Virus record (IMG/VR): IMGVR_UViG_3300034064_000201 | Location: 1 to 24,680 of that record | Direction: 5' to 3' (one strand) | Length of the DNA: 24,680 bases | Origin: a virus | Shown here: positions 2,870-17,238 of the stretch, in pieces | How the letters are laid out: each line of letters opens with the position of its first letter | How positions within the stretch are numbered: position 1 is the first letter of the stretch | The notes under the pieces: model-generated | Database searches by the model: none | What the model saw: only the letters and a program-made list of their open reading frames with translations | Told to the model about the DNA's origin: nothing | Translations under genes and position numbers: made by a program

Positions 2870-4848
2870 CCAAATGGACTGCGCCTGATATTGCATCACT
2901 TCGTGGTGACAATAGTAGACCTCTACAAAAGATCTTCGGATCTTTAACAGAGTACCTTAAAGACACTTTAAGTCAGACGACAGAAGTTTCTCAAACGTAT
3001 GTGCGTAATGGTGAAACGACAGCGTTAACTATTGGTACTGTAGTATATTTGGATGCTCGGCAGGGTAATAGGGCTACTGTGAAGCGTGCGTTTAATACGA
3101 GTGATGCTACGAGTGCTAAGACCCTTGGTGTCGTCGCAGAGTTAATTCCTGCTCATGGTGATGGTCTTGTGACTACGTTGGGTTATTTGGAGAAAGTTAA
3201 TACGTCTGCGTTTACTGCTGGACAAACTTTATATTTGGGTGCTACTGCTGGGACGTTTACTGCCACTAAACCTCATGCTCCTAACCATATGGTTTATGTT
3301 GGTGTTGTTGTTCGTGCTAATGCTGGCAACGGCATTATTTATGTCCGTTGTCAGAATGGTTATGAGTTAGATGAGATTCATGATGTTTTGATTACGTCTC
3401 CTACTGCTGGGCAGACTTTGTCGTATGATGCTGTTAATAGTTTGTGGAAGAATGCGACGTTTAGTGATGGTGGTGGGTTGACTAACCTGAACGCAAGTAA
3501 TCTTGCGTCAGGTACTGTCCCTACTGGGCGTATGAGTGGTTCGTATGCAGGTATTACTGGTGTTGGTACTTTAAGTGGTCTTACTTCTTCAGCACGAGTT
3601 TGGGCGCAAACAGACTTAAGAGTAGGAAACGCTAACTCTACAGTTCTATCGTCAACCTTATACAATTTGGTTGTGACACCACAGGCATATACGGGTCTAC
3701 AGGTTCTTCTTGGTGAACATTACGGTCTCACAAGCGTAGGTACAACTAATAATGATTTTACAGTTTTTGCTAATACAACTGTAAGAATTAAATATGTAAA
3801 CACCACGATAGCAACCTTTAACTCAACTGGTATGACAATTGATGGTGCTGGATCTCCTTCTTTTACTCTCGGTGATACTGGGTTTGCAGGTTATTCGGGA
3901 CTTGTAGGGGATAAAGGTTATTTGCTATTAGGCAACAGTGTTAGCGACCCCGTAATGTATTTACGAACTAGTGGTAGTGGTCCTGTTTATCTTGGTGCAG
4001 CAAACAGCAACACTCTTCAAGTTGGTAATGGTTCAACAACTCTTATTGCTGGTTCGGGCATAACAATGCAAGCAACAACACAGACGATGATTAACGGCAC
4101 AAACAATAATGCTGGCATTTATCTTGGTGGCGGTATCGCCTCAACAGCAACAGGTGGCATTGAAGCATCATGGCGTGACGCAGCAAACCCAAGTATTGCT
4201 ATTGGTGTTACGAGAGATAACAACCGAACAATGACCGTTCATTCTTATGTAGATAATACGATCAGATTTTTTGCAGGTAATACTGTCAAAGCATATGTGA
4301 ACAGTAGCGGTTTTTTAGCAACTCATTATTACGGCAATGTGCAATACGGTTTTTATGGGTCTATGTCTGTGTATGGCATTAACAACAGTTGGTATGGAAT
4401 AGTTTTTCCTGAATCTGCATCAACAATGATGGTGCAAAACAACACTTTTGGTCATTACCGTAACAACTCCACATGGAACTTTTATGTTACAGGTGGCACA
4501 TTTACTCCGTCAGACGCAAGATATAAAAGAGACATTGAACCATTAGAACACGGAATGAATTTTATACGAGAAATTGTTCCTGTCACTTACGACCCATTAA
4601 CAGAAAATACTGACGATGACCCTGAAGCGACTGTTGGTAGAACCCATTACGGGTTTACAACACAAAACATTTTGCAAGCACTCACAAATGCGGGCGAAAC
4701 AAGAGATGTAGCAATAGTGGATGTTGGTGGTTGTGACCTTTCTATGGGTAGCGATAGGCAATATTTGAACCATTCGGCGCTTATTGCGCCTATAGTTAAA
4801 GCAATACAAGAGTTAGATTTACGACTACAACAATTGGAGACAGTATGA
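2866..4848 (+). CDS. Tail fibre/spike with C-terminal peptidase S74 intramolecular chaperone
   Basis: 660 residues; ATGA overlap with the preceding gene. The N-terminal about 190 residues are a beta-rich virion-binding region. A glycine/serine/threonine-rich linker (LTNLNASNLASGTVP, about residues 205-219), of a sort common in phage fibres, leads into a long repetitive beta shaft. The C-terminus (about residues 546-660) is a peptidase S74 domain starting FTPSDARYKRDIEPL, with the Ser549-Lys554 dyad. It is followed by the chaperone body and ends in a coiled coil (AIQELDLRLQQLETV). This family trimerises the fibre and then cuts itself off N-terminal to the serine, so the mature fibre should lose about 112 residues. 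From about 3590 onward ACA, GCA and TCA codons become common, unlike the T-ending first third, which suggests an acquired tip. It probably determines host range. Confidence 0.88.
   Translation: MTKWTAPDIASLRGDNSRPLQKIFGSLTEYLKDTLSQTTEVSQTYVRNGETTALTIGTVVYLDARQGNRATVKRAFNTSDATSAKTLGVVAELIPAHGDGLVTTLGYLEKVNTSAFTAGQTLYLGATAGTFTATKPHAPNHMVYVGVVVRANAGNGIIYVRCQNGYELDEIHDVLITSPTAGQTLSYDAVNSLWKNATFSDGGGLTNLNASNLASGTVPTGRMSGSYAGITGVGTLSGLTSSARVWAQTDLRVGNANSTVLSSTLYNLVVTPQAYTGLQVLLGEHYGLTSVGTTNNDFTVFANTTVRIKYVNTTIATFNSTGMTIDGAGSPSFTLGDTGFAGYSGLVGDKGYLLLGNSVSDPVMYLRTSGSGPVYLGAANSNTLQVGNGSTTLIAGSGITMQATTQTMINGTNNNAGIYLGGGIASTATGGIEASWRDAANPSIAIGVTRDNNRTMTVHSYVDNTIRFFAGNTVKAYVNSSGFLATHYYGNVQYGFYGSMSVYGINNSWYGIVFPESASTMMVQNNTFGHYRNNSTWNFYVTGGTFTPSDARYKRDIEPLEHGMNFIREIVPVTYDPLTENTDDDPEATVGRTHYGFTTQNILQALTNAGETRDVAIVDVGGCDLSMGSDRQYLNHSALIAPIVKAIQELDLRLQQLETV
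3486..3512 (+). repeat. Inverted repeat within the fibre linker coding sequence
   Basis: CCTG-(A)-ACGCAAG, loop TAAT, CTTGCGT-CAGG: an 11-bp stem with one bulged A. It lies in the codons for the conserved TNLNASNLASGT linker, about 80 bases before the codon-use change in this gene. Confidence 0.6.
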
Positions 4849-8087: not shown

Positions 8088-11000
8088 ATGGCTGTTTATA
8101 ATCCTCGTTTTGACCCAAATAGTATGGGTGCTTCTACTGGCTCTTCACCTAAGGTGCAGAGCCTAAAGGATATCCTTGCTGCTCAACCTGTTCAAAAGCG
8201 TGAATCTTCGCTAGGTAAGAGCGCCTCTACCAAGGGCGCTCCTGATGAGGGTGGATGGCGTGGTCTTGTAGGGGATGTTCTTGGCAGTGCTCCTGCCAAG
8301 TTATTGTTGAAACCTTTGATTGCGCTTGACGTTCCCCGTCGTGTCGTTATCTCAGGTATTAAAGAAGGCATTGACATCTTCGGTCCTGATGATGCGTCTT
8401 TGGGCGATTTCATGAAGCAGGTTAAAGATCCTACTTTTGGTGCTGGAGATTTTGTTAATACGGGAAGCAAATGGGCTGACCGTATTCTTGGTTTTGTTGG
8501 TGACGTTGCTCTTGACCCTTTGACTTACGCTACGTTCGGTGCTTCGCATTTCGCTGGTAGTGCTGGTCGTCTTGCTTTGGCTAACCTTGCTAAGGACGCT
8601 GGCATGTCAGGCGCTAAACTTGGTGACATTGCACGCTATGGGCGTGCTGCTCTTGATGCTGACGAGATCGCTCGTCTTGGTGTCAACCGTAGCGGTGTGT
8701 ATATGTTTGGTAAGCGTCTGACTGCGAGACGTATTCCTTTGACTGGCAGAATTGGTGAGTTGAGTGAGAAAGGTTTGGCTAGTCTTCGTCTTGCTGGATC
8801 TGAAACTAAACTTGGTTCTGCAATGCAGAAGGCTTTTACTCCTAAAGATTATAAAGAGTTACGTATCGCTTTGGCTAAGGGCGATATTCCTGATAGTAAA
8901 GTTGGCGATGTTATTACGACGATTGTTTCTCGTGATACTGAACGTCAGGCTGCTGCACGTGGCGCTAACGAAGGTCAGCGCCGTGTGGCACAGACTATGG
9001 CTGAGGCTGGCGAAGCAGAGATTCAGTCAACACGTAAGACGTTGCATAAATATATGGAGAACCCAGCGTTGCTTGCCAACGCTTCTCCTGTAGAGCAGAA
9101 GGCTTTGTCTCGTTGGACTACTTTGTTTGGTTCTTTTTGGGATGACGTTGATGCAATTATTAAACTTGTAGATCCTAGTGGTGGCTTTGGTCGTTTCCAA
9201 AACTATTTCCCTCACATGAGCACTGATGCTGCTAATAAGTGGATGCGTGAATCACGTGGTGCTTACAGTAAGGAAGTCGCTGAACTCATTGATCGTCCTC
9301 TTGACCCTGCCTCTGTTTTCCAGCATCGTAAATTAAAAGAGGGCATGGAATGGTTTGGTACTAAGTTAGGTAAGGACGATTTAACTGTTGATCGTTTGAA
9401 TGAGATTGCACGTAATGGTGGTTTCACTGACGACTTCTTTGAGACTGACATTATTACTGTTGCAGAAAAGTATGTTGGTAGTTATTCAAAGCAGATGGGT
9501 ATCTCTTCTCGTTTGAAAGAACTGTCAGATAAGGGTGTTCTTAAAACTCTTTCTGATCGTGCTATTGATGAAACGATTATTGACACTGGCGCTAAGGCTG
9601 CTCATGAGGTAGTTCTTAAGGCTGCTACTAAAGATCTTGTTGATGTTGGGGTGAACTTTAAGAGTGCTTTGCAGATGGCTGCCGAAGGTGTTGTCGTCGC
9701 CAAGAATGAGGCTGTTGCTGGTATCGCTAATGTTACTGAGGTTGCTTTAAAGGCAACGTCTGCAGCCGATGCTGCTGCGTTGCAGTTAGCAAACGTTAAT
9801 AAGAAGATGGACGATGCTGTCAGTCTTCTTGATAACTATCAGAGAACTATTGAAGGTCTTCTTGCTCCTGATGGTTCTTATCCTATTAGTGCTGGTCCAG
9901 TTTTCAAGCAGTTGGACGAACTGAAGATTCAGTTAGTCCAGTTTAAGGATGAGTTTGCTGGGGCTTCTGCTAATGAGGCTAGGTTTGCCGAGGAACTTGC
10001 TGCTGCTAAAGCGGAGGGTGCTGCTGCTGAGGCTGTTGTTAAGAAGCGTCAGGCTGCGGAGCGTGCGACGACAAAGAGGGCAACTGATGCGAAGGCTAAG
10101 AAGGTTGCGACTAAGATTGAGAAGACTATTACTGATGTTCAGGACACGGTTAATTATAATCAGTTGTTGACAGAGAATTATAATTCTATTGTTGAGGGTA
10201 CTGTGTTCACTGGTGCTAATAGTGATCTTCTTAATAACATTGGTGAGTGGATTGGTTCGCAGCCTTTGGCTTCTGCTACTCGTGGTCGTAAGGGTGTTCA
10301 ACCAAAGTTTAGTGGTGGTGTAGATGCGTATATTAAAACTAATCTCGGTAATCGTGAATGGTTTAAGCGTTTAACTGGTAAGAATAAAATATCTCCAACT
10401 AGCGTTGCCAAGTTAAACTATGAGGGTAGCGAGAATACTGTTGTTGCTTTGTTGAACTCAGGACCATCTTATATTGAAGATGGTCGTCGTGCTGGCATGT
10501 GGATGTTGGCTCGTGATGAGAAGTTCTTTGGTGAGGATGTTCCTGAGATTCTTGCTAGAGCACGTGAGGATCTTGTTCGTTCTCTTGAGGATGCCGAGAC
10601 TGCTGTTATTGCTGATGCTGCTAGAGCGAGTGCAGCAAAAAAGACTGAGACAGTGAGTGATGCTGTTGTTGTCGGTGCGACTGCGACTAAGAAGCAGCAG
10701 GGTGAAATTGCTGCTGCGTCTGCGAGTCTTACTGGGGAGAACACTGCAGGTCGTATTGCTGCTCGTCGTGTTGAAGATGTGAATATTGTTGCTGATGAGG
10801 CAGGCCAATATGCTGCACGTTTGGAAAAGTTCTCTAATGTTCGTGAACAGTTAGAGGCTGCTGGTCTTTCTAATTCTGCTGAGCCTTTGACTCAGGAAGC
10901 AAAGGTTAAGTTTGCTCAGATGCTTGTTGGTGAAGAGGCATTGGCTGAGCGTGCTGCTGCTGCCAATGCAGATGAACTCGTGGGTGATGTTGCGGATTAT

Positions 11001-14000
11001 AATGTTTCTGATGAAATCTTTGCGAAGACAGGCGTTGATGAAGAAGCAGCAATGGATGTTGCGAACGCTGAAGATTATGGTAGTACTCTCGCTGACTCTA
11101 CTGATACAAGTGTTTATTCTAAGTCTGATTATATTGAGGGTGGATCTGTACGGAATATTTCAACTGCTAGTGACACTATTACTATTGATAGCGATTTCCA
11201 AAACGCTATCAATAATGCTATTGCTAAACCTATTGAAACTTTCGCTGATCTTCATCGTGTTGTTAAAGAGATTGAAGACAACATTGTTGGGCGTACGTGG
11301 GAAGTTGGTCAGGGCGCAACTCAAAGAACATACACTGTTCGTGATGCAATCGTTGCTCCTACTGCCAAGGATGGTAAGTCTGCTATTCAGCGTGCGGTTG
11401 AAAACAACTTAACTAAGGCAAATGTTAAGGCTGCAGAGATTAGTGGCTTGACCACTCAAGAGGTTTCTCAAGTTGTTGCCGAGAAGTTAACTCAGTACAT
11501 GGTGTTGTCTGAGTTGCATCAGAGGTTTGTTAATATTGGCGCTGTCCTTGGTAAGCATGGTCAGACTGTCACTAAGGACATGTTGTCTGATACTGCGAAG
11601 AATGTGACACGCAACCTTCGCCAGCATTGGCAGGCAAAGGTTGAAAAATTGACTGCTTTGGGTGGTCCTGAGTTGGAGCGTGCTCAGAATGTATTGAAGC
11701 AACTTGATTCCATTACTCTTGAACCTTCTGATGAGTTGTTCTCTCGTATGCTTGGAGATATGTCTGTCCGTGTTCGCAACACGGCTGCCGATGCATCTGA
11801 TGCTACTCGTGTGAGTGGCTTGTCTAATGCTGCTCGTGGCAAGATGGATGATGCTACTGATTCTTTGCAGAAGATGAAGTCCACTCCTCAGTATGTTAAG
11901 GCTATGCATGATAAAGATATGGTTAATGCCATGGACGATCTTGCTGCTTCTAATCTTGATCAATATGTTCTTCCCGATGGTACTCAAGGTTTCCTAGCCA
12001 AGGATGCCGAGGGCAACGTTGATGTGTTGATGATGCCTGATGGTGTTACTCCTGTTTCGTTCACTGAGGCTGAGTGGCGTTCTCTATATAAAGACCCTAA
12101 GGCTAATGTTGTTGCTGACACTACTAAGGTCACTGCTCTTGAAGATGACATCTCCAAGTTGGCAAACAACATTCAAAATGGCAAAACTACTTTAACTAAT
12201 ATGGAGAAGGCTCGTGCTGCTGGCAAGTTAACTGAAGCAGATATAGCCACGCAGCAAAAGATCATTAATGCTCTTGGTGCTGCGCAACAAAAACTTGATG
12301 GACTACAAATAGATTTAGCAAAACTAAAATCTGTTGCTGATGTTCATAATCCTGCCGTTCAACAGATGGCTCTTGAAAAGATGCGCATCCTCGTACATGG
12401 TAACGGCAAGCAGCAAGGCTGGTACAACTCAGGGGTTGACCTGAAGGGTGTTCTTAACTCTGACAATGCTGCTGTCGCTTTGCGTCGCACAAACATTAAG
12501 TCCGCATGGGAATCAGGACCGCAAGCAAAGTTCTTGGCTGAAGTAGATAATACTGCAGCCAAGGCTGAAGTGTATGCGCAACAAAGTTTCTCCAACTCTG
12601 TCGTCGCAATTAACGATCATGCTGATGTGTTAACCAAGGCTGCTGATGACGCTGCAAAGTTAGCGCAGGAGAAGGCTGCTAAGGAGGCTGCAGATGCTGC
12701 AGCCGAAGCACCTGAAGTTATCCCTGATGTTATTCCTTCTGCTCCTGTTGACAACACTAAGGTTTCTACTTTGACTGCGATGTTAAAGGAAGCGAGTACT
12801 GGTACTTCTGCTGCTAGAGCGAGTCTTAAAAAAGTTGAAACTAAGATTAGTAAGTTGGAAGCAACTCTTGCTTCTGTTCGTCAGCGTGAGGCTACACGCC
12901 TAGCAGGCAAGGCTGAGAAGCAACAAACTGTTGTTAATAAGTTGGCTGACACGCTGCATCAAGCACAAGGTGCTTTTGATGCTGCTGAGGCTGTGCGTGC
13001 TTCTGCTCAAGAGGTTGCTGAGCGTACTATCCCGTGGCTTGAGGACACTATTGCTTTTGTGGATTCTGTTATTGATGGGACTGTGAAGTTGCCTCAGACT
13101 CGTACGGGTGGCAAGTTTGGTCCTCGTCCTGTTGCTACTCCTATGCCTCAGACTGTTGCAGATCGTGCTGCTCAGACTGCAGCAGATCGTGCTTTGACTG
13201 GCAAGAATGCTGCTGCTCGTTTGCGTAAGGCTGGTCTTACTAATGATGAGGCGAATGAGTTGACTCGTTGGCGTAAGACTACGCAGTTGGCTATGAAGGC
13301 TTTTAATGATGATCCCAATGATCCTATTGCTCGTGTGCTTATGGCTGCTGCGCATGCTGAAGGTAAGTATTTCATGGCTGATCTTACTGTGCGTCAGAAT
13401 CAATTGATTATGCGCACTATTGATCAGGGTGATATTGCGACGACATTCAAGAAGGCAACTGAGGATGGTTTTGCTTCGTTGGAGAAGATTGGTTTGAAGG
13501 GTACGCAAGCACCCAAGGAGATCGCTGAAGTTTTGCAGAACGTTCGTCGTGCCGATCAGCCTGCTTGGGCTAAAGAACTTAATCGTTTCTTTGGTAAGTA
13601 CACACGTTTCTTTAAAGCGTATGCAACGTTAAGTATTGGTTTCCATGTTCGCAACGCTATGTCTAACACGTTCTCTCTTGTCGCTTCGGGTGCTGATATT
13701 AAGAATATGCATCGTGGTTTTGATTTGTATCGTGATCTTATTTCTCATGTGAATAATAAGGGCAAGATTGATGACTGGCTTGCTAAGTTTAGTGGCGAAG
13801 AGGCTAAGCGTGTTGAGATCGCTGTTCGTGCTATGGAGTCTGCTGGTGGTGGTCGTGTTGAGGAAGCGTTCGCTGGCTTCGCACGTAAGGGAAGCACTAT
13901 TACTGACAACCCTTTGACTCGTGGTTCAATTAAGATAGGTGAGCGTGTTGAGGGTTCGGGTCGTTTCATGCTCGCTTATGACTCTGCTGCTAAAGGTTTA

Positions 14001-14720
14001 GATTTTAATACTGCGACTGCTCGTGTGAAGCGTTACTTGTTTGACTACAACGATGTTGGTTCTTTTGATGAGAACATTCGTCAGATTGTACCGTTTTGGA
14101 TTTGGATGTCACGCAACCTCCCATTGCAGTTGGTTAACCAGTGGAGTAACCCTCGTGCGTATGCGATGTATAACAATCTAATGAGGAACGTTGGTCAGGA
14201 CGATTCTAAGGATGTTGTTCCTTCTTGGTTGAAGGAACAGGGTTCTGTGAAGATTGCTGATGGATGGTATCTTGCACCTGATCTTGGTTTCAACAGGTTG
14301 AGTAAGGACTTGGAGCAGTTGAAAGATCCTGCTCGTTTGTTGTCGTATGTTAACCCTGCGTTGCGTCTTCCTGTTGAAGTGTTTGGTGGACGTAAGTTCT
14401 ATAACAATGTTCCTTTCAGTCAGGATAAGGAGAAGGTTGCTGCTGGTTTTGGTGCTTCTCCTGTTATTGCTGCACTCGCTGATTTGCTTGGGCAAACCGA
14501 GCGAGGTCCGAATGGTCAGCAGTTGGTTGATCCTAAGTTGAACTATGTTCTTCAGTCTCTGTTGCCGATGTTGGGTAAGAGTGAACGTCTTGTTCCTGAA
14601 TCGGATGAGATGAAGCCGAAGGTTCTTGGTAACTGGGCTTCGTTCTTGGGTGTGCCTGTTCGTCAGGTTACTCAGGGTATGCGTGATAATGAATTGCGAC
14701 GACAAAGTAGTGGAGGTTAG
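8088..14720 (+). CDS. Giant internal (ejection-type) virion protein, 2210 aa
   Basis: This is the largest gene, 27% of the window. A TTG at 8085 precedes the ATG at 8088 and the ATG is preferred; no good SD is visible. The N-terminal region (to about residue 170) contains GFVGDVALDPLTYATFGA, a pattern I associate with large phage internal proteins. A GGFGRFQNYFPHMS segment lies near residue 370 ('YFPH' is common in phage polyvalent proteins). A central third rich in Ala/Lys/Glu coiled coil follows (about 520-690, 820-900, 1345-1420, 1560-1660). The conserved-looking C-terminal part (about 1830-2050) contains RFFKAYATLSIGFHVRNAMS and a hydrophobic IVPFWIWMSRNLPLQLV near residue 2000. No peptidase, transglycosylase or polymerase motif was found by eye. 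A role as an ejected DNA-translocation or internal-core protein is inferred from size, coiled coils and place between the tail genes and the lysin. Confidence 0.7.
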   Translation: MAVYNPRFDPNSMGASTGSSPKVQSLKDILAAQPVQKRESSLGKSASTKGAPDEGGWRGLVGDVLGSAPAKLLLKPLIALDVPRRVVISGIKEGIDIFGPDDASLGDFMKQVKDPTFGAGDFVNTGSKWADRILGFVGDVALDPLTYATFGASHFAGSAGRLALANLAKDAGMSGAKLGDIARYGRAALDADEIARLGVNRSGVYMFGKRLTARRIPLTGRIGELSEKGLASLRLAGSETKLGSAMQKAFTPKDYKELRIALAKGDIPDSKVGDVITTIVSRDTERQAAARGANEGQRRVAQTMAEAGEAEIQSTRKTLHKYMENPALLANASPVEQKALSRWTTLFGSFWDDVDAIIKLVDPSGGFGRFQNYFPHMSTDAANKWMRESRGAYSKEVAELIDRPLDPASVFQHRKLKEGMEWFGTKLGKDDLTVDRLNEIARNGGFTDDFFETDIITVAEKYVGSYSKQMGISSRLKELSDKGVLKTLSDRAIDETIIDTGAKAAHEVVLKAATKDLVDVGVNFKSALQMAAEGVVVAKNEAVAGIANVTEVALKATSAADAAALQLANVNKKMDDAVSLLDNYQRTIEGLLAPDGSYPISAGPVFKQLDELKIQLVQFKDEFAGASANEARFAEELAAAKAEGAAAEAVVKKRQAAERATTKRATDAKAKKVATKIEKTITDVQDTVNYNQLLTENYNSIVEGTVFTGANSDLLNNIGEWIGSQPLASATRGRKGVQPKFSGGVDAYIKTNLGNREWFKRLTGKNKISPTSVAKLNYEGSENTVVALLNSGPSYIEDGRRAGMWMLARDEKFFGEDVPEILARAREDLVRSLEDAETAVIADAARASAAKKTETVSDAVVVGATATKKQQGEIAAASASLTGENTAGRIAARRVEDVNIVADEAGQYAARLEKFSNVREQLEAAGLSNSAEPLTQEAKVKFAQMLVGEEALAERAAAANADELVGDVADYNVSDEIFAKTGVDEEAAMDVANAEDYGSTLADSTDTSVYSKSDYIEGGSVRNISTASDTITIDSDFQNAINNAIAKPIETFADLHRVVKEIEDNIVGRTWEVGQGATQRTYTVRDAIVAPTAKDGKSAIQRAVENNLTKANVKAAEISGLTTQEVSQVVAEKLTQYMVLSELHQRFVNIGAVLGKHGQTVTKDMLSDTAKNVTRNLRQHWQAKVEKLTALGGPELERAQNVLKQLDSITLEPSDELFSRMLGDMSVRVRNTAADASDATRVSGLSNAARGKMDDATDSLQKMKSTPQYVKAMHDKDMVNAMDDLAASNLDQYVLPDGTQGFLAKDAEGNVDVLMMPDGVTPVSFTEAEWRSLYKDPKANVVADTTKVTALEDDISKLANNIQNGKTTLTNMEKARAAGKLTEADIATQQKIINALGAAQQKLDGLQIDLAKLKSVADVHNPAVQQMALEKMRILVHGNGKQQGWYNSGVDLKGVLNSDNAAVALRRTNIKSAWESGPQAKFLAEVDNTAAKAEVYAQQSFSNSVVAINDHADVLTKAADDAAKLAQEKAAKEAADAAAEAPEVIPDVIPSAPVDNTKVSTLTAMLKEASTGTSAARASLKKVETKISKLEATLASVRQREATRLAGKAEKQQTVVNKLADTLHQAQGAFDAAEAVRASAQEVAERTIPWLEDTIAFVDSVIDGTVKLPQTRTGGKFGPRPVATPMPQTVADRAAQTAADRALTGKNAAARLRKAGLTNDEANELTRWRKTTQLAMKAFNDDPNDPIARVLMAAAHAEGKYFMADLTVRQNQLIMRTIDQGDIATTFKKATEDGFASLEKIGLKGTQAPKEIAEVLQNVRRADQPAWAKELNRFFGKYTRFFKAYATLSIGFHVRNAMSNTFSLVASGADIKNMHRGFDLYRDLISHVNNKGKIDDWLAKFSGEEAKRVEIAVRAMESAGGGRVEEAFAGFARKGSTITDNPLTRGSIKIGERVEGSGRFMLAYDSAAKGLDFNTATARVKRYLFDYNDVGSFDENIRQIVPFWIWMSRNLPLQLVNQWSNPRAYAMYNNLMRNVGQDDSKDVVPSWLKEQGSVKIADGWYLAPDLGFNRLSKDLEQLKDPARLLSYVNPALRLPVEVFGGRKFYNNVPFSQDKEKVAAGFGASPVIAALADLLGQTERGPNGQQLVDPKLNYVLQSLLPMLGKSERLVPESDEMKPKVLGNWASFLGVPVRQVTQGMRDNELRRQSSGG
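14712..14716 (+). promoter_or_regulatory. Shine-Dalgarno GGAGG deciding the peptidase start
   Basis: GGAGG lies six bases before ATG 14723 and only three before GTG 14720, so the peptidase is started at 14723. It is embedded in the last codons of the giant gene. Confidence 0.65.
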
Positions 14721-14722
14721 TG

Positions 14723-15190
14723 ATGGCTTTATTTTTTAAGGGTCGCCCTTATACGGGGTGGAATGGTAATAGTAAGGGCAAGTTGAAAGGTACTGAAAAG
14801 TTCAAGGATTGGGTTGTGTTCTTGAATGGTGGCAAGATTAGGAATCTTGGTACGTGGAATGTTCGTCAGATGCGGAAGCATGCCAAGCCGAGTATTCATG
14901 GTACGGGTCGTGCTATTGATTTGCGTTACGCAAACCGTGAGGACGGTTTGGCGTTAATGGATTTCTTGGTCCGTAACGCTGAGGCGTTTGGTTTGGAATA
15001 TATTGGCGATTACCTTGGTGGCAAGTTTGGTCGTGGATGGCGTTGTGACCGTGATGGTTGGCAGGTATACAAAAAACCCACCATTGGTAGTGGTGGGTCG
15101 TGGATTCATGTTGAGTTAAGCCCTGCCGTAGCCAGCGATGCTGACTACGTGGACGCTGTGTTTGCTTGTTTATTGAAGCCTGTTAAGTAA
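14723..15190 (+). CDS. M15-type peptidase, probable endolysin
   Basis: 155 residues. The zinc-peptidase M15/VanY-like signature is clear: SIHGTGRAIDLRY at residues 57-69 gives His59 and Asp66 (HxxGxAxD), and SWIHVELS at 126-133 gives His129 and Glu131 (HxE). These supply the two His and one Asp zinc ligands and the catalytic acid. Such enzymes cut peptide cross-links or D-Ala termini in peptidoglycan. As the last gene of the rightward late operon it is the best endolysin candidate. It has no signal peptide and no cell-wall-binding domain, and no adjacent holin is recognisable. An alternative is a virion-associated lysin used at entry. Its codons 118-126 also form the stem of the leftward terminator. 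Confidence 0.82.
   Translation: MALFFKGRPYTGWNGNSKGKLKGTEKFKDWVVFLNGGKIRNLGTWNVRQMRKHAKPSIHGTGRAIDLRYANREDGLALMDFLVRNAEAFGLEYIGDYLGGKFGRGWRCDRDGWQVYKKPTIGSGGSWIHVELSPAVASDADYVDAVFACLLKPVK
15071..15098 (-). terminator. Intrinsic terminator of the leftward operon, embedded in the peptidase gene
   Basis: Read on the minus strand: ACCCACCA, loop CTACCAA, TGGTGGGT, with the stem running directly into TTTTTT (plus-strand AAAAAA at 15071-15076). The stem is a perfect GC-rich 8 bp with a 7-base loop and a U tract. On the plus strand there is no T tract after the stem, so it should act only on transcription from the right. Confidence 0.75.
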
Positions 15191-15433
15191 CTATTCCATT
15201 CGTAACTGCAGTATTTCTACTACTGTTGTTACGAATGACATTAGTTCTAGCATTGCCATAATGTTTCCTTCTGTCGCATTCATGTAGGTGCTGATGAATG
15301 CTTCTGCCCCACTATGGGGGATGAGTAGTTTGATCTCATAGAAGGTATCTGAGTCTGATTCTATTTTGTTTGCTCGTGCTTGAAGGTCGGCAAGGTCTTG
15401 AGGATCAAACGAGTTTAGGAATTCGTCGCTCAT
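15191..15433 (-). CDS. Small acidic protein (80 aa), unknown function
   Basis: ATG 15433 overlaps the stop of the upstream gene (ATGA); a GTG at 15442 would add MPA. The product starts MSDEFLNSFDPQDLADLQAR, is acidic, and ends in a hydrophobic helical stretch (NIMAMLELMSFVTTVVEILQLRME) that could be amphipathic or membrane-peripheral. It is the last gene of the leftward chain and stops at the base next to the stop of the rightward peptidase gene. No family recognised. Confidence 0.6.
   Translation of the reverse strand: MSDEFLNSFDPQDLADLQARANKIESDSDTFYEIKLLIPHSGAEAFISTYMNATEGNIMAMLELMSFVTTVVEILQLRME
15197..15237. repeat. Hairpin-forming inverted repeat at the convergent gene junction
   Basis: CATTCGTAAC (15197-15206) pairs perfectly with GTTACGAATG (15228-15237). 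Inside, CAGTA (15209-15213) pairs with TACTG (15221-15225) around a 7-base loop. It lies 7 bases past the end of the rightward operon and within the last codons of the leftward one. There is no T tract on either side. Confidence 0.7.
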
Positions 15434-15621
15434 GGCTGGCACTCATCTTGGTTGAAGCGGTAGATGGGGATGCAGGGATCATCGTACTCTTCGTATAGTT
15501 CTTCTTCTTCTGCTGTCAGGTATCCATCGTGGGTTGCGCAGTAGAAACTGATCCATCCTTTTCTCATGCCGTGTTGTATCCATGAATATCTGTCGTCGTA
15601 AACGTTTTGTGGGTCATCCAT
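15430..15621 (-). CDS. Small tyrosine/acid-rich protein (63 aa), unknown function
   Basis: The ATG at 15621 overlaps the end of the upstream 27-residue gene (ATGGATGA). The product has SWIQHGMRKGWISFYCATHDG near residues 13-33, then an acidic helix (LTAEEEELYEEYDDPC) and IPIYRF. The CxxHDG segment plus a later Cys (about residue 49) could form a small metal site, but only one Cys-x-x-His pair is obvious, so this is weak. Conserved-looking sequence suggests a real phage family. No function assigned. Confidence 0.6.
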   Translation of the reverse strand: MDDPQNVYDDRYSWIQHGMRKGWISFYCATHDGYLTAEEEELYEEYDDPCIPIYRFNQDECQP

Positions 15622-15697
15622 TTTTATCTTCTTTGATCATGGATGCGATAAGAATAAAGTTGATTACGAGGCTTGCGATTACCATTACGTCATACAT
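15614..15697 (-). CDS. 27-residue single-span membrane peptide (tentative)
   Basis: The minus-strand ATG at 15697 opens MYDVMVIASLVINFILIASM, followed by a charged end IKEDKNG and TGA at 15616-15614. The first 20 residues are one hydrophobic span with a single Asp near the N-terminus, followed by a charged cytosolic-type tail. AAGGAAGAAG lies about nine bases upstream as an SD. It overlaps both neighbours by eight bases, filling what is otherwise a hole in the gene chain. It could be a small membrane effector of early infection; it is too short and too early-placed to call a holin. Confidence 0.45.
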   Translation of the reverse strand: MYDVMVIASLVINFILIASMIKEDKNG

Positions 15698-15830
15698 GTT
15701 TTTTGCTTCTTCCTTTTTCTATTGCTGGAATAGTTTTTAGTTTCACATCATAGATGCATGCTAGGTGTGCCTTAGGCACTCCTAGTCTTACTGATTCACG
15801 TACTAGTTCGTCTAGTAGTTCATCAAGCAA
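15690..15830 (-). CDS. 46-residue basic-tailed protein with TTG start (tentative)
   Basis: The minus-strand frame starts at TTG 15830, overlapping the upstream stop by eight bases, and ends TGA 15692-15690, overlapping the next ATG by eight. The sequence is MLDELLDELVRESVRLGVPK (initiator shown as M), then AHLACIYDVKLKTIPAIEKGRSKKHV. Residues 1-27 could form two helices resembling a small HTH, and the tail is Lys/Arg-rich. It has no ATG and no clear SD, so expression would rely on translational coupling. Its support is the continuous overlap chain and lack of another explanation for this gap. Confidence 0.4.
   Translation of the reverse strand: MLDELLDELVRESVRLGVPKAHLACIYDVKLKTIPAIEKGRSKKHV
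15761..15785. repeat. Imperfect inverted repeat, 11-bp arms
   Basis: CTAGGTGTGCC, loop TTA, GGCACTCCTAG: ten of eleven positions pair (one T/T mismatch). It lies inside the tentative 46-residue gene. It has no adjacent T tract, so a terminator role is unlikely. Confidence 0.5.
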
Positions 15831-16023
15831 TGTCAGGTTCGTCCGCTGATACAACGAAGTCTCCCTTTACTCGGTCTGCGATTGAACCAATCTTGTCAAT
15901 GATTGTTTGATCTTCATTGATTTCGGCTAACCATAGGACTGTTGCGATGGCTAGTGCAGCGACATCAGTGAACTCTAGTGGCTTTAGTTCTTTGGTTGTT
16001 TCTTCTTTTGTTTCTTCGTTCAT
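15823..16023 (-). CDS. Small acidic protein (66 aa), unknown function
   Basis: ATG 16023 overlaps the upstream stop (ATGA) and has GAGG a few bases before it; longer upstream extension in frame is coding for the neighbour instead. The product begins MNEETKEETTKELKPLEFTD, a charged tail, then a helix-rich body (VAALAIATVLWLAEINEDQT, IIDKIGSIADRVKGDFVVSA). The AALAIATVLWLAEI segment is hydrophobic but contains Glu nearby and is probably a buried helix rather than a membrane span. No known family recognised. Confidence 0.6.
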   Translation of the reverse strand: MNEETKEETTKELKPLEFTDVAALAIATVLWLAEINEDQTIIDKIGSIADRVKGDFVVSADEPDIA

Positions 16024-16790
16024 TTTTCCTCGCTTAGTTGTAGATTGAATGTTTCGTTCCATACCATCATTGCGATGGTTGCGTATCCTACTAGGTCTTG
16101 CCATGTGTCTACTAATGCTTCGTTCTTAGGACGATGTCCTTCTTCTACGAGTGTTAGTAGTCGTGCGATCTTGTCGCACATTCTGATTGCGATTCCTGTT
16201 AGACCAAACAGGTTGATGTTGTTATGTCCGTAGTCTCGTTGTTTGTTGACTAAGAGTTTGTGCATTGAGTCTGCTTGCCAAATGCCATCGTGTTTAAGTT
16301 GTGCGCAAGCCATGTCTCCTACGTCACCGATGAGTTCTAGTGGGACTTCTATTTGTGATCGTACGCATTGTGCGAGTCGTTTCTGCATTCCTTCTATTTG
16401 TGTGAGGATTGCAGGATTGGTTGGTATGAATGAGTTCATGTCATCAATGATTGCTCTTGATGCTTCTTCCCATGTTGTGAACATTGTGTACCTCATGTTG
16501 ATTGAGTGGTCGTTGATTAGTAGTCGTTCTAGTTCTGCCATTGCTTTCTTGGATAGTCGCCATGCGTGAGGTTTGCTCACGCCTAAGCGCCCACCTAGTT
16601 GGCTGTATGAGACACCTTCGTAGAAGATTGCTTCAATGCAGAACTTTGATTGTGGTCCTAGTTTATCTATTGCGTCTTGGACTGCTTCAATGTGTGATGT
16701 GTCTTCGGGATCAAACACGTCACCGTTTTGAAGCATTCGTTCTGCTTCTGTTGTTGGCTTTGCTGCTAGTAGATCAAGGTTGAATGTCAT
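16020..16790 (-). CDS. Sigma-70 region 4-like HTH fused to DUF1599 (nucleotide-modification-associated domain 1)
   Basis: 256 residues from ATG 16790, which overlaps the upstream gene by 17 bases; an in-frame upstream start would overlap it far more. Residues about 33-90 look like a sigma-70 region 4 helix-turn-helix: AVQDAIDKLGPQSKFCIEAI, then GVSYSQLGGRLGVSKPHAWR and LSKKAMAELERLL. Residues about 177-247 match DUF1599/Nmad1: HKLLVNKQRDYGHNNINLFG, AIRMCDKIARLLTLVEEG and ALVDTWQDLVGYATIAMM, an all-alpha domain that in phages accompanies nucleotide metabolism or base-modification genes. The linker between is helical. A transcription regulator coupled to nucleotide sensing is one reading; another is that the HTH is only DNA-binding. 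No sigma region 2 is present, so it is not a complete sigma factor. Confidence 0.7.
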   Translation of the reverse strand: MTFNLDLLAAKPTTEAERMLQNGDVFDPEDTSHIEAVQDAIDKLGPQSKFCIEAIFYEGVSYSQLGGRLGVSKPHAWRLSKKAMAELERLLINDHSINMRYTMFTTWEEASRAIIDDMNSFIPTNPAILTQIEGMQKRLAQCVRSQIEVPLELIGDVGDMACAQLKHDGIWQADSMHKLLVNKQRDYGHNNINLFGLTGIAIRMCDKIARLLTLVEEGHRPKNEALVDTWQDLVGYATIAMMVWNETFNLQLSEEK

Positions 16791-17238
16791 GGCGTATCGG
16801 CTCTGTTGGGAAGTAGTCAATGTGGAGTGCGAAGTATGGTTTGTTGTTGTCGGGGAATCTGTCAACGACACCGAACTTGTGGAATGCTTTAACCCATTCG
16901 GCTAGTGGGGCTACCCAATAACGTTTCTTACTTGAGTCCCATATCCATAGGTTGACTGGTCCTATTGCTTGCCATACTGACATTGATGTCAGTTTGTCAA
17001 AGCGTGTCTTGAGCATGCTGTCGCCTCGTGAGGCGCACCCCATGACTTCGTATAGACCATCGGGGAGCATGTAGTCGGGGGCGTAACGCATTGTGTCTCG
17101 CATGTGTCGTGTATCAAACGTTGGGCGTAGCATCCCCAGCCTGTGGGCTGAGGGATTGACAGATTCAAATGCTGTTTCTGCTGTGTCTCCCATTGTTTTG
17201 ATTCGTGTTGACCACGGTTGGTTCTTGTAGGTGCTCAT
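16774..17238 (-). CDS. Probable PD-(D/E)XK-fold phage protein (154 aa)
   Basis: ATG 17238 overlaps the resolvase stop (ATGA). A nuclease-like order of motifs is seen: Glu21 in GDTAETAFESV, then YAPDYMLPDGLYEVMG at about residues 52-67 (Pro54-Asp55, Glu64-x-Met66), then Lys77 in DSMLKTRFDKL. The hydrophobic strand PVNLWIWDSS comes next. This is the layout of restriction-endonuclease-fold proteins, but the usual Lys of ExK is Met here, so the activity may be lost or the Lys may have moved to position 77. It lies between a RusA-type resolvase and the HTH-DUF1599 gene. The fold assignment is by motif reading only. Confidence 0.5.
   Translation of the reverse strand: MSTYKNQPWSTRIKTMGDTAETAFESVNPSAHRLGMLRPTFDTRHMRDTMRYAPDYMLPDGLYEVMGCASRGDSMLKTRFDKLTSMSVWQAIGPVNLWIWDSSKKRYWVAPLAEWVKAFHKFGVVDRFPDNNKPYFALHIDYFPTEPIRHDIQP

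Follow-up and report, generated by a model that had tools for sequence, protein, structure and literature searches.

Genome setting and the convergent junction

The DNA analysed here, called the window, is the entire IMG/VR virus record IMGVR_UViG_3300034064_000201; it has 24,680 bases and 45% G+C, and no tRNA genes were found in it. The rightward genes encode structural proteins (PHROGs), and the last of them is a lysin-like gene of 156 aa (14720–15190, plus strand). The leftward genes include those for a DnaB-like helicase, a primase, RusA and a protein with sigma-70 region 4 (Pfam and PHROGs), and the leftward set stops at 15191. The last leftward gene (83 aa; 15191–15442, minus strand) has relatives in the two groups of close relatives described below, clades A and B, and in L012. 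Its stop codon adjoins that of the lysin-like gene. The two genes abut at 15190|15191 with zero intergenic bases, and an earlier sequence-only reading was right that no base separates the two operons. The leftward protein at 16020–16871 is possibly a phage transcription regulator; Pfam detects sigma-70 region 4 in it (5.2e-6), and it also contains a phrog_1485 region.

A similar arrangement is found in the distant complete circular podovirus MW202803, whose helicase is 43.5% identical to that of the window. Its helicase-primase-RusA block likewise faces a late block with an annotated D-Ala-D-Ala carboxypeptidase, but the junction differs; it has about 200 intergenic bases, with a T-poor hairpin there past the replication block. 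A search of 50,697 phage records for relatives of the lysin in named phages found none. A scan of genome contigs with the lysin gave a single partial match (41%) on a Legionellales MAG contig, from which no host is deduced.

The lysin-like gene

Residues S58, H60, G63, A65, D67, H130 and E132 are invariant in 50/50 lysin family sequences. We take SxHxxGxAxD ... HxE to be the pattern of metal and catalytic residues of LAS/M15 metallopeptidases. The structure model of the lysin has a pLDDT of 91, and its best PDB matches were the zinc-bound C-terminal domain of VldE (E 2e-3, probability 1.00) and then Hedgehog domains, none of them below E 0.001. The window lysin had no match to Pfam and PHROGs at E 0.001; Peptidase_M15_3 of Pfam matched 1/50 family members at E 0.055, and no M15 family was above the cut-off. 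By modelled fold and motif, the gene product is a LAS/M15-type metallopeptidase, and this lysin-like protein would act in cell lysis.

A hairpin with a T-tract on the minus strand of the lysin gene

The minus strand of the lysin gene carries a hairpin, H1, at 15075–15099, consisting of eight Watson-Crick pairs, an outer G-U pair and a 7-nt loop. A T-tract lies at 15071–15076 of the same strand, where the plus strand reads AAA AAA and encodes Lys118-Lys119. Read leftward from 15099, the minus strand is GACCCACCA-CTACCAA-TGGTGGGTT-TTTTGTATAC. Positions 15091–15098 form the eight Watson-Crick pairs with 15076–15083, and 15099/15075 is the outer G-U. The sequence-only reading had described an 8-bp GC-rich minus-strand hairpin with a six-T tail; this was confirmed at the same place, with the correction that one T of the six-T run closes the 8-bp stem, leaving 4–5 free U beyond it. 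The reading had also placed the element within codons of the M15 gene, and the gene is correct, but the codons that overlap the hairpin and T-tract are 118–127 (KKPTIGSGGS), not 118–126. In the structure model, these codons form a predicted loop right ahead of the strand with the conserved H130 and E132 (HxE), and such a loop should tolerate changes of codon and residue.

As expected of an intrinsic terminator, the stem is G+C-rich and stable (−13.4 kcal/mol for the hairpin alone in the window scan), and the U-tract comes right behind it. The position is downstream of the unit that would be ended; 92 nt separate the last leftward stop from the stem, in agreement with the roughly 90 bases first reported, and H1 is located 91–115 nt inside the lysin gene. 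The H1 segment has a minimum free energy of −14.0 kcal/mol, which 7/200 dinucleotide shuffles of a 71-nt stretch equalled or bettered. For 15060–15190, the minus strand folds more stably than 200/200 shuffles (z −3.7) and the plus strand more stably than 189/200 (z −1.85). A bidirectional terminator would have a U-tract on both strands, but the plus strand beyond the H1 stem is TCGTGGATTC, and no scoring terminator site was found on the plus strand of the lysin. Rfam gave no matches at gathering scores. A frameshift signal, with the A6 run ahead of the hairpin, was rejected on inspection by eye; the codons are in the phase AAA AAA CCC, which does not suit a slippery heptamer, and the run is absent from clade B.

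Codon choice and the strength of H1

Candidate terminators over the whole window were scored by subtracting 1.5 times a tail score from the hairpin free energy, and H1 ranked first on both strands with −18.9, followed by a runner-up at −16.2. Its score was matched by 0/5000 synonymous recodings of the lysin with late-gene codon usage, and by 0/5000 permutations of the lysin's own codons. It could still be argued that the peptide sequence produced H1 by chance, as a by-product; the codons for Pro-Thr and for Gly-Gly pair readily, Lys-Lys gives A6, and a functionless shape would have been inherited by one clade. We regard this as unlikely. When the local 17 codons were recoded, the H1 score was attained in 1/60,000 cases and a score of −16.5 in 3/60,000, which argues against a by-product. 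Rare codons are present on both arms of the stem (among late genes, CCC is used for 12/161 Pro, ACC for 19/372 Thr and GGG for 33/415 Gly), and H1 is located just beyond the leftward operon; both points also speak against chance.

In favour of a by-product, an equally strong site arose somewhere in 16/150 trials when all listed genes of the window were recoded and both strands were scanned. Therefore, the argument is carried by place and not by strength alone: such strength is not rare per window, but it is rare at the exact location of H1. By proportion, chance would put such a site within the 120 nt past the leftward operon in roughly 1 in 3000 trials. A terminator scan of the window with a loose consensus found 10 sites against 9.5 expected.

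Conservation of H1 among close relatives

Lysin relatives comprised 12 sequences from a search of viral contigs and 80 of the 155 found by profile search. The close group has 11 sequences including the window, at least 87% identical. A pattern search for the codons of the peptide in viral contigs returned only 10 contigs, all already in the set. The sequence-only reading had proposed comparing relatives for a maintained stem or compensatory changes, and the comparison supported it in part. Clade A, which consists of the window, L001, L004, L006, L007, L008 and L010 (7/11; five distinct lysin sequences), keeps the hairpin and the T-tract, and one of these shows a two-sided change. Clade B, consisting of L002, L003, L005 and L009 (4/11; three distinct sequences, 87–91% aa identity to the window), instead has AAG AAG TCC ACG and no U-tract. 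The sequence-only reading had named relatives with an unmaintained stem as counter-evidence, and these four sequences supply it in part.

At the H1 position, clade B has a different minus-strand fold that is unusually stable (0/2000 recodings as stable) and has pyrimidines within the stem. Plain loss of the hairpin in clade B was rejected as a description, given this alternative stable fold without a U-tract. No strong replacement terminator was found in the four clade B sequences, and their best U-tailed candidates elsewhere are weak. By eye, lysin codons ~94–127 of L002, L003 and L009 show many synonymous differences from clade A and use other codons; this may be a recombined block.

The two-sided change is in L001. 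This sequence differs from the window at 22/438 sites, and within the 25-nt hairpin only at 15077 and 15097, which are stem partners on the minus strand. The change at 15077 turns a lysin Pro into Ser, that at 15097 is synonymous in Gly, and the pair is kept, C-G becoming U-A on the leftward RNA. Under random placement of the 22 differences, exactly one partner pair is hit with P ~0.007 and at least one with P 0.022. Over seven distinct rows, 90.5% of the cells of H1 are paired, and a single two-sided change was equalled in 215/500 shuffles. No covariation in H1 other than the 15077/15097 pair was detected. The L001 change is a further point against a chance by-product.

Clade A without L001 has one variable site across the ten codons of the hairpin, whereas stretches of this length average 5.0, and 12/137 ten-codon stretches of the lysin are as conserved; with L001 included, there are three variable sites and 36/137 stretches are as conserved. 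Synonymous constraint local to the hairpin is weak, and this favours the by-product explanation. The proposal that a leftward terminator shares its bases with lysin codons is supported in part, by the rare stem codons, the L001 change and a hairpin in L014, described below. Selection on H1 is supported mainly by codon choice and the single L001 event.

Distant relatives

In L014 (65% identical), the minus strand carries a U-tailed hairpin with 10 pairs in its stem; it spans −50 to −27 relative to the lysin stop, and the leftward ORF ends at −3 relative to that stop. This hairpin is nearer the stop than H1 and does not occupy the H1 position. When the codons of the L014 lysin were permuted, 0/5000 permutations were as good. 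With looser limits, no comparably strong hairpin with a good U-tract was found near the lysin end of L011, L012, L016, L018, L019, L020, L022 and L023. L011, which has the Pro-Thr..Gly-Gly peptide, carries a partial 6-bp stem at the H1 position without a U-tract; this is consistent with a chance by-product.

Over 78 loci (81 minus three repeats; 914,476 strand-bases), 32 sites scored −16 or lower. Five of these were H1 of clade A and one was that of L014. L067 has a strong hairpin (3727–3748) with T-tails on both strands, between convergent ORFs about 1.4 kb past the lysin, and this is an ordinary bidirectional terminator, a positive contrast from within the lysin family. L070, L074 and L075 also have a strong hairpin with T-tails on both strands past the lysin, as in L067.

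A second hairpin of the leftward RNA

A second minus-strand hairpin, H2, lies at 15127–15149, between the leftward stop and H1. It has 10 pairs and a 3-nt loop; both clade A and clade B keep it, and L012 has it in a different sequence. Terminator scans omit H2 because it has no U-tract, and the sequence-only reading had overlooked it; it is more widely kept than H1. Of the 11 close sequences, eight were tested after three repeats had been dropped, and in each of them 0–2/1500 recodings equalled the 48-nt H2 segment in minus-strand stability. Equivalent segments of L012 (61%) and L014 gave 1/1500 and 0/1500, with quite different sequences. H2-like stability on the minus strand was found in none of L011, L016, L018, L019, L020 and L022. 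On the plus strand, the H2 segment is weaker in the window (58/1500) and equally strong in L004 (0/1500). The two one-sided changes in the H2 core preserve pairing on the minus strand, as G-U, and would give A-C if the plus strand folded.

Along the lysin, H2 was the largest minus-strand deviation in 6/6 profiled sequences (z −6.4 to −10.6). It was followed by H1 in clade A (z −4.1 to −4.8) and by a palindrome at codons 65–84 that is strong on both strands. H2 is possibly an older element than H1. The view of H2 as unique had to be tempered; an antisense z of −6 or lower was reached by 7/1726 sixteen-codon stretches taken from the listed genes of the window, H2 among them. In the late genes, the antisense strand of 1851–1910, 8133–8180, 2708–2767, 1035–1082 and 11601–11648 also far exceeds recoded sequence in folding stability (z −6 or lower). 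Just beyond the lysin stop, at 15197–15237, the window and L001 have a 10-bp inverted repeat (CATTCGTAAC ... GTTACGAATG) with a 21-nt loop. By eye, this repeat has 7 bp in L007 and L010, and clade B has another repeat, which spans the gene junction.

Probable termination of the leftward operon and alternatives

We conclude that H1 and its T-tract are very probably a unidirectional intrinsic terminator of the leftward (replication) operon, located inside the opposing lysin gene, towards its 3' end. Directly seen for this reading are the hairpin and T-tract at this position, the codons chosen, the L001 change at both partners of a stem pair, and the U-tailed hairpin elsewhere in L014. It is the lack of space between the operons that would account for a terminator inside the lysin gene. 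RNA polymerase arriving from the right would pass the last leftward stop codon and transcribe about 90–120 nt antisense to the lysin, and the RNA would form H2 and then H1. The RNA would be released in the U-tract near 15071–15075, ahead of deeper entry into the late operon. The leftward RNA would then overlap the last 115–120 nt of the lysin mRNA, and its structured 3' UTR would be antisense to the lysin end. Termination would be polar, and H2 may act as a tandem hairpin, as a pause or as a guard of the 3' end.

If this holds, a single stretch of DNA codes for a protein loop and for a candidate terminator of the opposing operon, at a measurable cost, the use of rare codons for Pro, Thr and Gly. 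If phage genes are recoded, or terminators are called only in intergenic DNA, such signals would be overlooked. Lambda and T1, among other phages, already exemplify this economy of space, and our knowledge of termination is unchanged; this is a well-supported new instance in an uncultured phage, and the accompanying H2 is the one twist.

In addition to termination, the leftward 3' UTR (H2 and H1) might be a cis-antisense regulator of the lysin, like lambda OOP on cII. The early RNA would pair with the lysin mRNA at its 3' end, exposing that mRNA to RNase III until late infection. The anatomy is OOP-like, with a terminator within the 3' end of the opposing gene and an overlap of about 120 nt, compared with 52 nt in lambda (PMC5869508), and the retention of H2 in clades A and B and L012 is also consistent with it. 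However, no minus-strand promoter consensus site was found in 15099–17000, in a promoter scan that as a whole was at chance level (11 found, 12.9 expected) and has no power. We consider such regulation quite doubtful. A still bolder conjecture, to which we give little credence, is that the 3' UTR of the early mRNA, with H2 followed by H1, both terminates early transcription and restrains the lysin in OOP-like fashion until late transcription; it would then be a lysis-timing device that costs no extra DNA.

Collision-type bidirectional termination seems very improbable. Here, hairpins H1 and H2 of the convergent RNAs would position head-on polymerases, and both transcripts would end. Some plausibility comes from a model published for convergent genes of E. 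coli, in which such sites are positioned by RNA hairpins (PMC13082048), and from the finding that clade A shares no strong rightward terminator within 3 kb downstream. Yet a rightward RNA ending here would truncate the lysin message before its stop, and since the lysin plus strand has no scoring terminator, the signal is one-sided.

That the hairpin works instead in the lysin mRNA, for example by slowing ribosomes or protecting RNA, is the least credible explanation. In its favour, the H1 segment is equally stable on the plus strand (−14.8 versus −14.0 kcal/mol on the minus). Set against recodings, however, the minus strand is the more exceptional in the window (1/2000 equally stable, versus 22/2000 for the plus strand). 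The H2 core carries two one-sided changes, and each leaves a pair only on the minus strand. An A-run ahead of a stem also has no familiar role other than that of a T-tract on the other strand.

Comparison with known systems

We return to H1 as a probable one-sided terminator of the leftward operon. Our literature search on terminators inside opposing phage genes found, with the terms used, no paper directly on the subject and nothing in print on H1, and the precedents come from annotated records. A scan of annotated phages, of the same kind as the window scan with looser limits, recovered lambda tO in cII (−21.0), P22 oop in c1 (−23.2), a minus-strand terminator of T1 (−19.2) and the annotated terminators of phi29. 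P22 a23 was weak (only −9.2) and P22 sar was missed, and nothing strong was found at three further lambda junctions and one further P22 junction.

Lambda tO (38603–38628, in cII at 38360–38653) and P22 oop (32280–32311, in c1 at 32036–32314) are the closest in form, each being a leftward U-tailed hairpin within the coding sequence of a rightward gene, at its 3' end, with RNA antisense to that end. Lambda OOP overlaps cII by 52 bases, and its transcription stops at tO (PMC5869508). This RNA is short and is made from a promoter of its own, pO, whereas here a whole operon would be ended and the overlapped gene is a lysin. In T1, a leftward operon faces the lysis cassette, and the annotated terminator (43966–43988, minus strand) overlaps the end of the ST11 spanin gene, which ends at 43982. 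However, only the last bases of ST11 are overlapped and the facing genes are separated by a 122-nt gap, in contrast to the gapless junction and deeper hairpin of the window.

The convergent terminator of phi29 likewise ends a leftward early operon where the late operon meets it, but it is intergenic and annotated on both strands, while H1 is intragenic and one-sided. Bidirectional terminators of convergent bacterial genes also place a hairpin at the junction; in them an A-tract and a U-tract serve both strands (PMC7566282), whereas H1 has its U-tract on one strand. A review states that termination sites are often located within a neighbouring gene (PMC7154746). Compensatory change in terminator stems is documented for Bacillus cereus (PMC5381666). 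In Streptomyces, stem-loops without U-tracts occur at RNA ends, as I-shaped terminators or at Rho-dependent transcript ends (PMC8269248), and by analogy H2 may possibly play such a role at the end of the leftward RNA.
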